Assembly (NCBI GenBank): GCA_900314575.1
Contig: OMVS01000015.1
Coordinates: forward strand, 1-37,590
DNA from: an uncultured Olsenella sp.
GTDB lineage: Bacteria > Actinomycetota > Coriobacteriia > Coriobacteriales > Atopobiaceae
Direction of reading: 5' to 3'
DNA length: 37,590 nucleotides
This document shows positions 10,344-15,051 of the stretch, piece by piece. The first letter of the stretch is position 1. Every line of letters starts with the position of its first letter. The translations under genes and the position numbers were made by a program. The notes under the pieces are model-generated. The model was not told where the DNA came from, ran no database searches, and saw only the letters and a list, made by a program, of their open reading frames with translations.

Positions 10344-11423
10344 ATGCCGCTAGGTGACAAGTGCTATCCCATGGTTTCCGTCGTCATCCCTGCGTACAAC
10401 GTCGAGGGGTACGTGCGCAGGGCCATCGAGTCGCTCCAACGCCAGACGCTCACGGACTTCGAGCTTCTCGTGGTCGACGACGGCTCCACGGACCGCACGG
10501 GCGATGTCATCCGTCAGTGCACCAGGCACGACCTGCGCATCGTTGACTTCCACACGGACAACGGCGGGGCCCCTGCGGCGCGCAACCTCGCGCTTGCGCA
10601 CGCACGCGGCAAGTACGTCTACTTCATGGACGCAGACGACTGGGCGGAGGAGACCATGCTCGAGGACATGGTCGCCCTCGCCGAGCGCGAGAGCCTGGAG
10701 CTCGTCGTCGCCGGGTTCTACATCGACACCTACTACGGAGCTGAGGGACAGCACACCTCGGAGGTGAAAAGCCGCCCGTCGACCGTCTTCGAGACGCAGC
10801 AGGAGTTTCGTGCCGCCGCCTGGCAGCTCTTCGACCAGAACCTGCTCTATCCGCCATGGAACAAGCTCTTCCTCCGCGAGCGCATAGAGCGGCTCAGCCT
10901 CCGCTTCAGGGACACCTTCTGGGACGACTTCCCCTTCGTGCTCGACTACATCCGCGACGTCGAACGCGTCGGCGTGATCGAGCGCCCCTACTACCACTTC
11001 ATCCGCCAGCGCAGCGAGTCCGAGACGAGCCGCTGGCGCCCCGACATGTACGAGAAGCGCGAGGAGGAGCACGGCTGGATGCTCGACCTCTACCACCATT
11101 GGGGCCTCGACGGCGACCCGGCGAGCATGGAGGTCGTGCAGAGGCGCTACGTCGAGCGCCTGGTCGGCTGCATCGAGAACGTCTGCAACCCCGAGTGCAC
11201 CTACCCGACGGACGAGAAGCTCCGCCTGATCGAGCAGATGATCACCAGCGAGCGCGCCCAGCTCGCCGTCAGGCTCGCGCGACCGCGCACCCTCATGATG
11301 CGGACCATGCTGAACCCGATCAAGACCAAGAACGCGCGGCTCGCCTATCACGAGGGCAGGTTCATCTCCTTCGTGAAGGACCACGACGCGCGGATGTTCG
11401 CGACCCTCAAGGCCAACCGGTAG
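10344..11423 (+). CDS. Family 2 glycosyltransferase
   Basis: 359 residues. The GT-A domain occupies about residues 11-215: VSVVIPAYN at 11-19, the nucleotide-binding VVDDGSTD at 43-50, and the metal-binding DADD at 96-99. A WDDFPFVLDYI segment near residue 195 resembles the catalytic-acidic region of EpsJ/WcaA-like enzymes. There is no membrane segment, so it acts in the cytoplasm; donor and acceptor sugars cannot be read from the sequence. It stands alone between truA and the Trp leader; an ATG at 10371 is an alternative start. A candidate -10 (TAGATT, 10295-10300) lies upstream. Confidence 0.85.
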   Translation: MPLGDKCYPMVSVVIPAYNVEGYVRRAIESLQRQTLTDFELLVVDDGSTDRTGDVIRQCTRHDLRIVDFHTDNGGAPAARNLALAHARGKYVYFMDADDWAEETMLEDMVALAERESLELVVAGFYIDTYYGAEGQHTSEVKSRPSTVFETQQEFRAAAWQLFDQNLLYPPWNKLFLRERIERLSLRFRDTFWDDFPFVLDYIRDVERVGVIERPYYHFIRQRSESETSRWRPDMYEKREEEHGWMLDLYHHWGLDGDPASMEVVQRRYVERLVGCIENVCNPECTYPTDEKLRLIEQMITSERAQLAVRLARPRTLMMRTMLNPIKTKNARLAYHEGRFISFVKDHDARMFATLKANR

Positions 11424-11554: not shown

Positions 11555-11583
11555 TTGCGCGCCCACGGGGTGCGGCGTATAGT
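11555..11583 (+). promoter_or_regulatory. Predicted promoter of the trp leader-ECF operon
   Basis: TTGCGC (11555-11560) and TATAGT (11578-11583) are separated by 17 bases, a good sigma-70-type arrangement with a weak -35. Transcription would start near 11590, about 35 bases before the leader ORF. The rest of 11424-11554, between the glycosyltransferase and this promoter, shows only GC-rich sequence and no gene that I can support. Confidence 0.65.
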
Positions 11584-11624
11584 GCCCGTCAACGCACGAG
11601 GCGACCCAGACGAGGAGGTGCACC

Positions 11625-11699
11625 ATGGCCGGCATGAGCGACGTTCGTTCCAACCTGAGCTGGTGGTGGCGCCCCGTCCTTGCTGTCGGTCGACTGTGA
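11625..11699 (+). CDS. trp leader peptide with three consecutive Trp codons
   Basis: A 24-codon ORF with an ideal ribosome-binding site (AGGAGG at 11613-11618, six bases before ATG). Residues 13-15 are Trp-Trp-Trp (TGG TGG TGG, 11661-11669), in the context NLSWWWRPV; it ends at TGA 11697-11699. Three adjacent Trp codons by chance in so short an ORF are very unlikely. Its only expected role is to let the ribosome sense charged tRNA-Trp and steer the downstream terminator, as in known trpL genes of actinobacteria and enterobacteria. Confidence 0.85.
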   Translation: MAGMSDVRSNLSWWWRPVLAVGRL

Positions 11700-11729
11700 G
11701 GCTCGTGCGCCACGTAGAAGGGGCGCAGG

Positions 11730-11761
11730 GAGGCCCCCGGGAGACCGGGGGCCTCTTTTTT
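11730..11761 (+). terminator. Attenuator terminator upstream of trpP
   Basis: A perfect 11-bp GC stem (GAGGCCCCCGG, 11730-11740, paired with 11745-11755), loop GAGA, followed directly by six T (11756-11761). It lies 31 bases after the leader stop codon and 72 bases before trpP, so it must be bypassed for transporter expression. Confidence 0.93.
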
Positions 11762-11833
11762 GTGCGTCCCGGATCCCACTCCCCCGCCAACGTCCTCGGG
11801 CCAGCGCCCGAATCCAAGAGAAAGGCAAAGACC

Positions 11834-12409
11834 ATGACCGAGAAGACCACCGCATCCGTCACCTCCGCCCGTACCGTCTCCGAGGGGGTGAGGCAGCACG
11901 GCATCCTCGACGTCTCCTCCCTGGTGCTGCTGGCGGTCCTTCTCGCCGCCGGAACCATCCTGAACATGACGGTCGGCAACGCGCTGGCGACCATCGGCAT
12001 CAAGCCGCAGTTCATCATCTCCGCCTACGCGATCGCGATCCTGCTGACCGACGCCAGGGCGAGCCAGGCCGCTCTCTTCGGCCTCATCTCCGCGGCGGTG
12101 ATCCAGCTCTCCACCTCGATCCCCGGCCTCAACTTCGCGACCGAGCTCGCGGGCTCCCTCGCCATGTACGGCGTCGTGAGGCTGATGACGAGGGGCGGAA
12201 GGCGCGCGCCCGCAGCGCCGTTGGTCGCGGCCTTCGTCGCCACGCTGGTCTCGGGCACCCTGTTCGCCGTGCTCGGCACGGTCGTGATGGGGGCCGCCGT
12301 CGCCACCGCTCTGGTGAAGGTCCCCATCGTCCTCGGCACCGCGGTCTTCAATGCCATCGTCGTCCAGGCGCTCGTGGTACCGCTGTCCAAGGTCCTGCAC
12401 CGCGCCTAG
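11834..12409 (+). CDS. trpP: ECF transporter S component, TrpP-like (tryptophan uptake)
   Basis: 191 residues, strongly hydrophobic after residue 25, with five or six membrane segments, the usual S-component architecture. The core shows a GIKPQFIISAYAIAILL segment, a later STSIPG turn and FNAIVVQALVVPL, which match the pattern I recall for Bacillus TrpP (YhaG). The tryptophan assignment rests on this similarity plus the Trp attenuator directly upstream. The ATG at 11834 follows GAGAAAGGC. The ATPases and EcfT follow, so the transporter looks complete and dedicated. Confidence 0.82.
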   Translation: MTEKTTASVTSARTVSEGVRQHGILDVSSLVLLAVLLAAGTILNMTVGNALATIGIKPQFIISAYAIAILLTDARASQAALFGLISAAVIQLSTSIPGLNFATELAGSLAMYGVVRLMTRGGRRAPAAPLVAAFVATLVSGTLFAVLGTVVMGAAVATALVKVPIVLGTAVFNAIVVQALVVPLSKVLHRA

Positions 12410-12429
12410 CGCCGGAGGGGAGACCCTCG

Positions 12430-12459
12430 CCGCCTGCCCGGCGCATGCCGGGCAGGCGG
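12430..12459 (+). other. Strong stem-loop between trpP and the ATPase gene (first of two)
   Basis: A perfect 13-bp stem (CCGCCTGCCCGGC, 12430-12442, with 12447-12459) and a GCAT loop. No T run follows, so it is not a classical terminator; it could protect the trpP mRNA 3' end or cause partial termination. Confidence 0.75.
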
Positions 12460-12470
12460 AGTCCGACCGG

Positions 12471-12496
12471 GCCCGGCGAGGGGCGACTCGCCGGGC
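12471..12496 (+). other. Strong stem-loop between trpP and the ATPase gene (second of two)
   Basis: A perfect 10-bp stem (GCCCGGCGAG, 12471-12480, with 12487-12496) and a six-base loop, followed by CTTACTG. It lies only 28 bases before the ATPase start codon and 11 bases after the previous hairpin. Confidence 0.75.
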
Positions 12497-12524
12497 CTTA
12501 CTGCACGACAACGATCCGAGGAGC

Positions 12525-14312
12525 ATGACCTTGCAGCAAGACCCGATCATCCAGATGCGCGACGTGAGCTTCACCTATGCCGGCGCGCCCGCCCCGTCGC
12601 TCGAGCACGTGACGCTCGGCGTGGGCGCGGGCGAGTTCGTGGGCGTCGTCGGCCCCTCGGGCGCCGGCAAGTCCACCCTTGCCGCCGCCATGTCCGGGGC
12701 TATCCCGCACCACTTCTCCGGCGAACTCTACGGCGCCACGCTGGTCTGCGGACGCGACACCTGCGAGTCGAGCCTCACGGACATCTCGCGCGTCGTCGGC
12801 AGCGTCCTGCAGGACATCGACGCGCAGATGGTGTCCTCCGTCGTCGAGGACGAGATGCTCTTCGGGCTCGAGAACTTCGGCGTGCCGCACGACGAGATCC
12901 CCGGCCGGGTGGAGGAGGCCCTCTCCACCGTGGGCGCAGCCGCCCTCAGGCACCGAGAGATCTCGACGCTCTCCGGCGGCCAGAAGCAGAAGGTCGCGAT
13001 CGCGGCCATCCTGGCGCTGCGCCCGCGCGCGCTCGTGCTGGACGAGCCCACGGCCGCCCTCGACCCCGCGAGCTCCGAGCTCGTCTTCGAGACGCTGCGA
13101 CGCGTCCGCGAGCGCGAGGGGATCGCCGTCGTCGTGATCGAGCAGAAGGTCGCCCTGCTCGCCGAGCACTGCGATCGCGTGGTCGTGATGTCTGGCGGCA
13201 GGGTCGAGCTTGACGGCGCCCCGCGCGAGGTCTTCGCCCATGCCGGCGAGCTGCGCGCCATGGGCGTCGACAGCCCGCGCGTCGCGCGCGTGACGAACTC
13301 CCTGGTCGAGAAGGGCCTGCTCGCGCCCGGGACTCCGCCGAGCCTCACCGTCGACGAGGCGCACGACGCCGTGGCCGCGCTCCTCGCGCCCAAAGAGCCG
13401 GGCGGTGCGTCCGCAGCCTCGGGGCTGCGGCCGGCGCCCGCTCGCTCGCCCCACGCGCCGGCGAGCCGCCCCCACGCCGAGGGGGCGGAGCCCGTGGTCC
13501 GCCTGGAGGGGGTGGGCTTCTCCTATGCGGGCACCGGCGACGGGGTGAGCGGCGTGGACATGAGCGTCTACCCCGGCGAGCTCGTCGGGGTGATCGGGCA
13601 GAACGGCGCCGGCAAGACGACCCTGACCAAGCTTCTGAACGGCCTTCTGCGCCCGGCCGCAGGACGCGTCCTGATGGCGGGCATGGACACCCGGACGACG
13701 CCGATCTCGACCCTCGCCCGGGAGGTCTCCACGCTCTTCCAGAACCCCGACCGCCAGCTCTGCAAGAACACGGTGATCGACGAGGTCGCCTTCGGCCCCG
13801 AGCTGCACGGGGTGGCGCGCGAGGAGGCCCTGGCCAGGGCGGGGAGGGTCGTGGAGCGCTTCGGGCTTCCGGCGGACGAGTCGCCCTTCGTGCTCTCCCG
13901 CGGGCAGCGGCAGATGGTCGCCCTCGCCTCCGTCGTGGTGATGGACCCGCGCGTCGTCCTGCTCGACGAGCCGACCGCGGGCCTCGACTACCGCGAGTGC
14001 ATGACGGTGATGGACACCGTCCGCGAGCTGGCCGAGAGGGGCTGTGCCGTCGTGATGGTCTGCCACGACATGGAGGTCGTCTCGGACTTCGCCGAGCGCG
14101 TCCTCGTGATGGCCGACGGCCGGGTCGTGGGGCGCGGGCCCACGGACGAGGTCTTCGCCCAAGGGGACCTGCTCGCCCGGGCGAGCCTGAGGGCGCCGGA
14201 GGTGGCGCGGCTCTCCGCCGCGCTCGCCGCCGACGTCGATGCCCGGCTCGGAGGGCGGACGCAGGTGGGGGACCTCGTCGACGCGATAGGGGAGATGGTG
14301 CGCAATGGTTAG
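12525..14312 (+). CDS. ecfA: ECF transporter ATPase, two ABC domains fused (EcfA-EcfA')
   Basis: 595 residues. Domain 1 (about 8-250): Walker A GPSGAGKST at 43-51, Q96, LSGGQ at 149-153, Walker B VLDEP at 171-175. Domain 2 (about 324-560): Walker A GQNGAGKTT at 358-366, Q406, signature LSRGQ at 457-461, Walker B LLDEP at 479-483, switch His H514. Domain 1 has Glu-Gln (206-207) where the switch His is expected. A Pro/Ala-rich linker (about 290-322) joins them. It energises the membrane complex by hydrolysing ATP. The ATG at 12525 follows CGAGGAG; the open frame upstream is not used. ecfT overlaps the 3' end by 8 bases. Confidence 0.95.
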   Translation: MTLQQDPIIQMRDVSFTYAGAPAPSLEHVTLGVGAGEFVGVVGPSGAGKSTLAAAMSGAIPHHFSGELYGATLVCGRDTCESSLTDISRVVGSVLQDIDAQMVSSVVEDEMLFGLENFGVPHDEIPGRVEEALSTVGAAALRHREISTLSGGQKQKVAIAAILALRPRALVLDEPTAALDPASSELVFETLRRVREREGIAVVVIEQKVALLAEHCDRVVVMSGGRVELDGAPREVFAHAGELRAMGVDSPRVARVTNSLVEKGLLAPGTPPSLTVDEAHDAVAALLAPKEPGGASAASGLRPAPARSPHAPASRPHAEGAEPVVRLEGVGFSYAGTGDGVSGVDMSVYPGELVGVIGQNGAGKTTLTKLLNGLLRPAAGRVLMAGMDTRTTPISTLAREVSTLFQNPDRQLCKNTVIDEVAFGPELHGVAREEALARAGRVVERFGLPADESPFVLSRGQRQMVALASVVVMDPRVVLLDEPTAGLDYRECMTVMDTVRELAERGCAVVMVCHDMEVVSDFAERVLVMADGRVVGRGPTDEVFAQGDLLARASLRAPEVARLSAALAADVDARLGGRTQVGDLVDAIGEMVRNG

Positions 14313-15051
14313 GGTCATCGACTACGTGGAGGGCGACACCCTCCTCCACCGGCTGAACCCGGTGGCCAAGCTCGCGCTCGCGGCCGGCATCATCGTGGCG
14401 ACCTTCCTCGCCAGGACCTGGGCCGTCCTCGTGGCACTTCTCGTCCTGACGCTCGTGCTCGGGGCCTACGCGCACGTCTCGGACAGGCTGCGCTCGATCC
14501 TCAAGGTGCTCCTGCCGGTCGCCGCGGTGATGCTCGCCCTGCAGTGCGCCTTCGTCACCGGGGGCGATCACGTGCTCCTGTGGATGACGACGGACGGGCT
14601 GACCTCGGGAGGCAAGGCGTGCCTGCGCCTGCTCGGCGTAGCCCTGCCGCTGATCCTCGTGCTCACCGTGACGCGCCTGAACGACCTGGCCAACGCTTGC
14701 GTGGAGGTCCTGCACGTCCCGTACCGCTACGCCTTCACCTTCACCACGGCCCTGCGCTTCGTGCCCGTCTTCGGGCAGGAGATGAACGCGATCATGGAGG
14801 CGCAGACGGCCCGTGGCGTCGAGTACGACACCAAGAACCCCTTCCGCAAGCTGCGGCTGATGCTGCCGCTGTGCATCCCGCTGCTGGTGAGCTCCGTGGG
14901 CAAGACGGATGCGACGGCGCTCGCGGCCGAGCAGCGCGGCTTCTACTTGAGGACGCGCGAGAGCAGTTACCGGCGCTACCCCCTCGAGGCCGCCGACTGG
15001 GCGTGCGTGGCGCTGGCCTGCTCGCTCGTCGTGCTCGGGGCAGCCCTCTAG
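14305..15051 (+). CDS. ecfT: ECF transporter transmembrane (T) component
   Basis: 248 residues with several hydrophobic segments in the N-terminal half and near the C-terminus. EcfT couples the ATPases to the S component. The two Ala-Arg-Gly-type coupling motifs are at A169-R170-G171 (AQTARGVEYD) and Q210-R211-G212 (AAEQRGFYLR), the second with Gln for Ala. The ATG lies within the end of the ATPase gene, indicating translational coupling and matched amounts. It is the last gene of the operon and is followed by a very stable terminator. Confidence 0.93.
   Translation: MVRVIDYVEGDTLLHRLNPVAKLALAAGIIVATFLARTWAVLVALLVLTLVLGAYAHVSDRLRSILKVLLPVAAVMLALQCAFVTGGDHVLLWMTTDGLTSGGKACLRLLGVALPLILVLTVTRLNDLANACVEVLHVPYRYAFTFTTALRFVPVFGQEMNAIMEAQTARGVEYDTKNPFRKLRLMLPLCIPLLVSSVGKTDATALAAEQRGFYLRTRESSYRRYPLEAADWACVALACSLVVLGAAL

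Follow-up and report, generated by a model that had tools for sequence, protein, structure and literature searches.

Is the ECF importer operon of an uncultured Olsenella sp. controlled by a leader peptide that reports tryptophan supply, and if so, through which RNA structures? The window, the whole 37,590-nucleotide stretch of DNA analysed, was read on its plus strand around this operon. A first-pass annotation had described a promoter, a ribosome-binding site and a 24-codon ORF encoding Trp-Trp-Trp, and an intrinsic terminator with six T, all ahead of genes for an S component, a fused EcfA1–EcfA2 ATPase and EcfT, and our reading confirmed each part in place. The promoter TTGCGC-17-TATAGT (11555–11583) comprises a −35 element, TTGCGC, at 11555–11560, a 17-nt spacer and a −10 element, TATAGT, at 11578–11583; by direct reading the −35 is weak, with agreement at 3/6 positions. 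A good Shine–Dalgarno sequence, GAGGAGG (11612–11618), also read directly, lies 6 nt 5' of the ATG at 11625, which opens the leader ORF MAGMSDVRSNLSWWWRPVLAVGRL (11625–11699; 24 codons, 24 aa), ending at the TGA stop at 11697–11699. Its three tandem Trp codons, TGGTGGTGG (11661–11669), form a putative stall site and double as strand 1 of a pairing, UGGUGGCGC:GCGCCAC, whose complementary strand 2 is the GCGCCAC region at 11706–11713. The final sense codons contain the predicted 5' element of an antiterminator, GUCGGUC (11685–11691). The intrinsic terminator, assigned by direct reading and conservation, consists of the hairpin GAGGCCCCCGG-GAGA-CCGGGGGCCTC (11730–11755) and is followed by a directly read T6 tract (11756–11761); its loop and descending arm hold the predicted 3' partner of the antiterminator, GACCGGG (11743–11749).

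Folding of the leader region is far stronger than that of shuffled sequence (z −5.1). A generic promoter and terminator scan of the window called neither the leader promoter nor its terminator, which we attribute to the weak −35 and to a stem that can be extended through G–U and A–U pairs into the T run. By itself, TGGTGGTGG is no rarity in the window (present in 17% of shuffles; the genome is GC-rich) and is unremarkable, so the significance of the leader was drawn from comparison. No family reached its gathering score in an Rfam search of the window; weak sRNA and Phe_leader matches mostly cover the terminator hairpin and were treated as chance.

The operon begins with a gene for a 191-aa S component (11834–12409), followed by the fused EcfA1–EcfA2 ATPase (12525–14312; TIGR04520 and TIGR04521, both above cut-off) and the EcfT transmembrane component (14305–15051; PF02361 CbiQ, 94 bits). 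The S component matches PF17099 (TrpP) at 23.3 bits (E 6e-5), below the 27.2 cut-off, and 30 of 38 homologues match the same family at E up to 0.01. A PDB sequence search with the S component gave no useful match. Among PDB entries, the structural model (pLDDT 92) comes closest to ECF S components, RibU for instance (Foldseek probability 1.00, TMq 0.57–0.61, E 0.02 or worse). As modelled, the product of 11834–12409 has an ECF S-component fold, and its gene stands in an operon with EcfA and EcfT. By sequence, the label 'TrpP-like' given at first pass is a weak assignment, the PF17099 match lying below cut-off. Between the S-component and ATPase genes, at 12424–12503, are two strong GC-rich inverted repeats without a T tract, CGCCTGCCCGGC-GCAT-GCCGGGCAGGCG and GGCCCGGCGAG...CTCGCCGGGCC, possibly a processing or partial termination site.

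The same genome carries, on another contig, an S-component paralogue of 46% identity that has a separate leader, MSQNARTSQAWWWRPAHTTGRS, and a separate terminator 5' of it. The two leaders share one and the same promoter motif, TTGCGC-17-TATAGT. TGGTGGTGGCG occurs seven times in the genome; only two of these sites fall in a short ORF with a terminator behind it, and both lie 5' of S-component paralogues. The leader arrangement at the window locus is not due to chance. The second S component (L003 5725–6300, C129), with its own WWW leader and promoter, has no visible EcfA or EcfT match on its contig.

To compare relatives, upstream regions were retrieved from a family set of 140 genomes, 69 of which encode S components. 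Conservation of the Trp codons and terminator, whose absence the first-pass annotation had named among the findings that would refute it, proved strong: 65 tandem-Trp leaders were found, in 64 of the 69 S-bearing genomes. A terminator lies 23–41 nt past the leader stop in 65/65 of them, and the exact layout of WWW, nine codons and a stop recurs in 61/65. In 77/83 S leaders, exactly 39 nt separate the first TGG from the stop. Promoters similar to TTGCGC-17-TATAGT, matching at least 8/12 positions, were present in 27/65 relatives, and the terminator stem shows compensatory change in 9/12 pairs. Where S genes are in tandem, a leader is found only 5' of the first. Two of the five exceptions (G039 and G040) retain the terminator, with the leader ORF absent. 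At L034 and L035, in genomes with trpC, the leader ORF is gone and a terminator with a GACCG apex still lies 5' of the S component. In a further exception, G008 (L090), the leader is replaced by an RNase P RNA-like sequence, recognised by eye only, that lies immediately 5' of the S component. Several loci (L042, L043, L052, L057, L086 and others) hold two tandem TrpP-like S paralogues that share a leader-controlled operon and its only A1A2-T module; these paralogues may differ in substrate or affinity.

We built a covariance model of the leader, searched other families of the order with it and read 40 loci. The WWW leader with its terminator also occurs in these families. Target genes among the 40 loci encode S components, TrpB2 (TIGR01415, above cut-off) and, in family f2, a sodium-dependent transporter (NF037979); all of these targets fit tryptophan. 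A scan of named genomes placed the WWW leader in Olsenella, Collinsella, Lancefieldella, Parafannyhessea and Tractidigestivibacter and, outside the class, in Gardnerella. The operon order S-(S)-A1A2-T is widely retained, with EcfT in 78/85 loci and a long EcfA1A2 match in 64. In Gardnerella, which belongs to another class of Actinomycetota, the WWW leader and terminator (L256–L276) precede a 36–41% identical S component and the antiterminator sequence differs; an old horizontal transfer is possible. At trp biosynthesis genes, no WW ORF with a terminator was found at 14 trpC loci (~10 kb each, one of 5.5 kb, a span outside which some operon starts may fall), apart from a weak match at one of them (L178; LARRAWW with an imperfect hairpin) that was judged coincidental. 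One of these loci (L186) carries a T-box.

Some relatives without the leader carry a second type of sensor on the same genes. The S genes of G073 and G067, the other two exceptions in the family, are preceded by a T-box with UGG at the aligned specifier position (identified by eye in G067), and UGG T-boxes replace the WWW leader at the TrpB2 genes of genera g30 and g35. The named-genome scan revealed T-box-like cores at the equivalent place in Gordonibacter, Raoultibacter and Clostridia. Against RF00230, the relatives' T-boxes fall below the Rfam gathering score, with E values of 1e-9 to 3e-16; the window gave no match to this model and has no T-box. That related genera place a T-box with a UGG specifier ahead of these genes is an independent sign of tRNA-Trp sensing. 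In the G073 and G067 loci (L099 and L300), a conserved short ORF (MASKRVFHRLRRHEWRLWS / MASKRAFSRLCHREWRLRS) separates the T-box terminator from the S gene.

The physiology of the host bears on what the operon imports. Profile or protein searches of the host genome (96.5% complete) found no trpA, trpC, trpD or TrpB2, which makes Trp auxotrophy, and with it a need to import Trp, very probable for the host. TRAP (PF02081) was found in 0/140 genomes of the family; Bacillus-type control of TrpP therefore does not apply. Regulation and metabolism together point to tryptophan as the transported substrate. The operon might nevertheless import another compound, such as indole or a different aromatic, and merely be regulated by Trp: the PF17099 score of the S component is below cut-off, and the two tandem S paralogues of many relatives may have different substrates. 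We regard this as unlikely, given that two unrelated sensors put the same S family under Trp control, that the host is a probable auxotroph and that most relatives match TrpP at the E value given above.

The antiterminator was analysed collectively. The leader's final sense codons hold (C)GGUC, and its complement, GACCG, lies in the loop and descending arm of the terminator. Across S leaders, GGTC is retained though the encoded residue varies (CGA, CAA or CTA, giving R, Q or L), and a constant GGTC with a variable residue indicates that the RNA, not the peptide, is conserved. Among 73 non-redundant leaders, pairing with the leader's own terminator reached −16.1 kcal/mol, compared with −13.7 for swapped and −12.5 for shuffled partners; the own terminator was preferred in 59/73 (Wilcoxon p 5e-10 against swaps, a value inflated by phylogeny). 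Because related leaders are not independent, five sequence classes were also compared, giving −15.8 kcal/mol for own and −11.1 for crossed pairs, with the own assignment the best of 120 class permutations. Unrelated solutions occupy the same position: CGGUCGA:UCGACCG, CGGGUUAUCG:CGGUAAUCCG in TrpB2 leaders and GUUUACUCU:AGGGUAAAC in Gardnerella. Helices of 14 bp at L037 and L049 are among the strongest cases. The window helix is short (6–7 bp), and by energy alone the terminator is favoured; switching must therefore be under kinetic control. Taken leader by leader, the helix frequently does no better than shuffles, and for this reason only collective tests were used. Classic antiterminators take the 5' arm of the terminator; the pairing predicted here uses the loop and 3' arm, which are transcribed last.

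Stalling on UGG could also be sensed while another fold antiterminates, such as one that joins strand 2 GCGCC to GGCGC; GGUC:GACCG would then be secondary. The Trp codons do pair with the post-stop GCGCCA segment, with moderate support (own −14.7, swapped −13.6), and in the window GUGCGCC, as read from the sequence, can pair with GGCGCA just 5' of the terminator. However, strands 1 and 2 covary far less than the partners of the apex pairing do, and the GGCGC alternative has no overlap with the terminator stem, making this arrangement distinctly improbable. The pairing of Trp codons with GCGCCA may serve to keep untranslated RNA terminating. Our preferred antiterminator is the apex pairing, and with it the predicted leader has the make-up of an attenuator: an ORF with a Shine–Dalgarno sequence and tandem codons, an intrinsic terminator and a computed, covarying antiterminator that excludes it and lies where the position of the ribosome would decide between the two.

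A TnaC-like mechanism would give the peptide itself the decisive role: the nascent chain would arrest the ribosome on free Trp, and excess rather than shortage would induce the operon. The leader contains Trp, and a C-terminal GR is recurrent among S-group leaders. Yet the leader C-terminus is unrelated in the TrpB2 and Gardnerella leaders, and some Gardnerella species have the leader frame shifted past the element with the RNA element still present, which argues against a peptide function. Three tandem Trp codons, an intrinsic rather than Rho-dependent terminator and target genes for acquisition rather than breakdown also speak against this scheme, which we consider very improbable. A further reading takes the terminator as nothing more than that of the glycosyltransferase gene 5' of it, which lies on the same strand and ends at 11423, and the WWW ORF as incidental, the codon run by itself being no rarity. 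The promoter sits between that gene and the terminator, and the reading is refuted because leader and terminator are conserved together at several loci independent of one another: at unrelated S loci and also 5' of TrpB2 and the transporter.

We thus favour a ribosome-sensed Trp attenuator that controls Trp acquisition, with a probability of roughly 0.88. The original proposal of WWW leader-peptide attenuation of an ECF importer gains support from the conserved leaders, the covarying antiterminator, the interchange with T-boxes and host auxotrophy. Comparison of sequences shows that the parts exist, that their spacing is constant and that the element covaries with the apex of the terminator; ribosome stalling, the direction of the response to Trp and Trp as the transported substrate are what we infer. 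Transcription from the promoter at 11555–11583 would yield the leader RNA, on which a ribosome would translate the WWW peptide. When Trp-tRNA is sufficient, the ribosome would reach the stop at 11697–11699 and mask the adjacent (C)GGUC, and the terminator (11730–11761) would form. When Trp-tRNA is scarce, it would stall on the three UGG codons, ~20–25 nt 5' of (C)GGUC, and leave the element exposed. The exposed element would then pair with GACCG at the terminator apex, allowing RNA polymerase to enter the genes for the S component, fused ATPase and EcfT. By standard footprint sizes, a ribosome at the stop would cover the element and one on the UGG codons would not. On a broader scale, we lean towards a Trp-acquisition regulon in Coriobacteriales and Gardnerella, based on a distinct class of apex-pairing attenuators on importers and TrpB2 that is exchangeable with T-boxes and not found at trp biosynthesis operons.

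Such a system would allow the substrate of an importer to be predicted from its own regulator, and would widen the reach of leader-peptide attenuation beyond biosynthesis, to import and to indole salvage, in Actinomycetota that are common in the gut and vagina and that in many cases are probably Trp auxotrophs. The WWW leader and the UGG T-box on the same gene provide a natural series for asking why one tRNA-charging sensor is used over another, and the apex-targeting antiterminator offers a simple architecture. In the open-access literature, we found no Trp leader peptide described on an ECF S component or importer, or in Coriobacteriales.

In E. coli trpL, the ribosome stalls on tandem UGG codons and translation is coupled to an intrinsic terminator. 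The window leader would resemble it in coupling a tandem-UGG leader to an intrinsic terminator, but differs in strand order and in its target, transport; the Rfam Trp_leader model did not match the window leader, even at E 5. Ribosome-mediated attenuation of transporter genes has been reported for bmrCD (PMC4191407) and mgtCBR (PMC3641672), where a leader ORF and attenuator likewise precede a transporter; their signals differ, and neither is an amino-acid importer sensed via the codons of its own substrate. His leader peptides of Firmicutes stand in for T-boxes in some lineages (PMC9413887, PMC2965389), but at histidine genes and in another phylum. T-boxes are known to regulate Trp uptake, as at S. 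suis trpX (PMC9382623). Like the proposed attenuator, Trp T-boxes respond to the charging of tRNA-Trp and regulate Trp transport, and in sister genera they accompany the same S component and TrpB2; unlike the window leader, they bind tRNA directly. Closest in phylum are the actinobacterial trp leader peptides of Corynebacterium and Streptomyces, with 2–3 UGG codons, a GC-rich terminator and an alternative antiterminator (Seliverstov et al. 2005, PMC1262725); they are known for trp operons and also predicted on trpS and, in C. diphtheriae, on a single trpB2A operon. Those attenuators govern biosynthesis or trpS, whereas the leaders described here precede importers and TrpB2 in Coriobacteriales and Gardnerella, and their predicted antiterminator lies within the leader ORF and targets the terminator apex.
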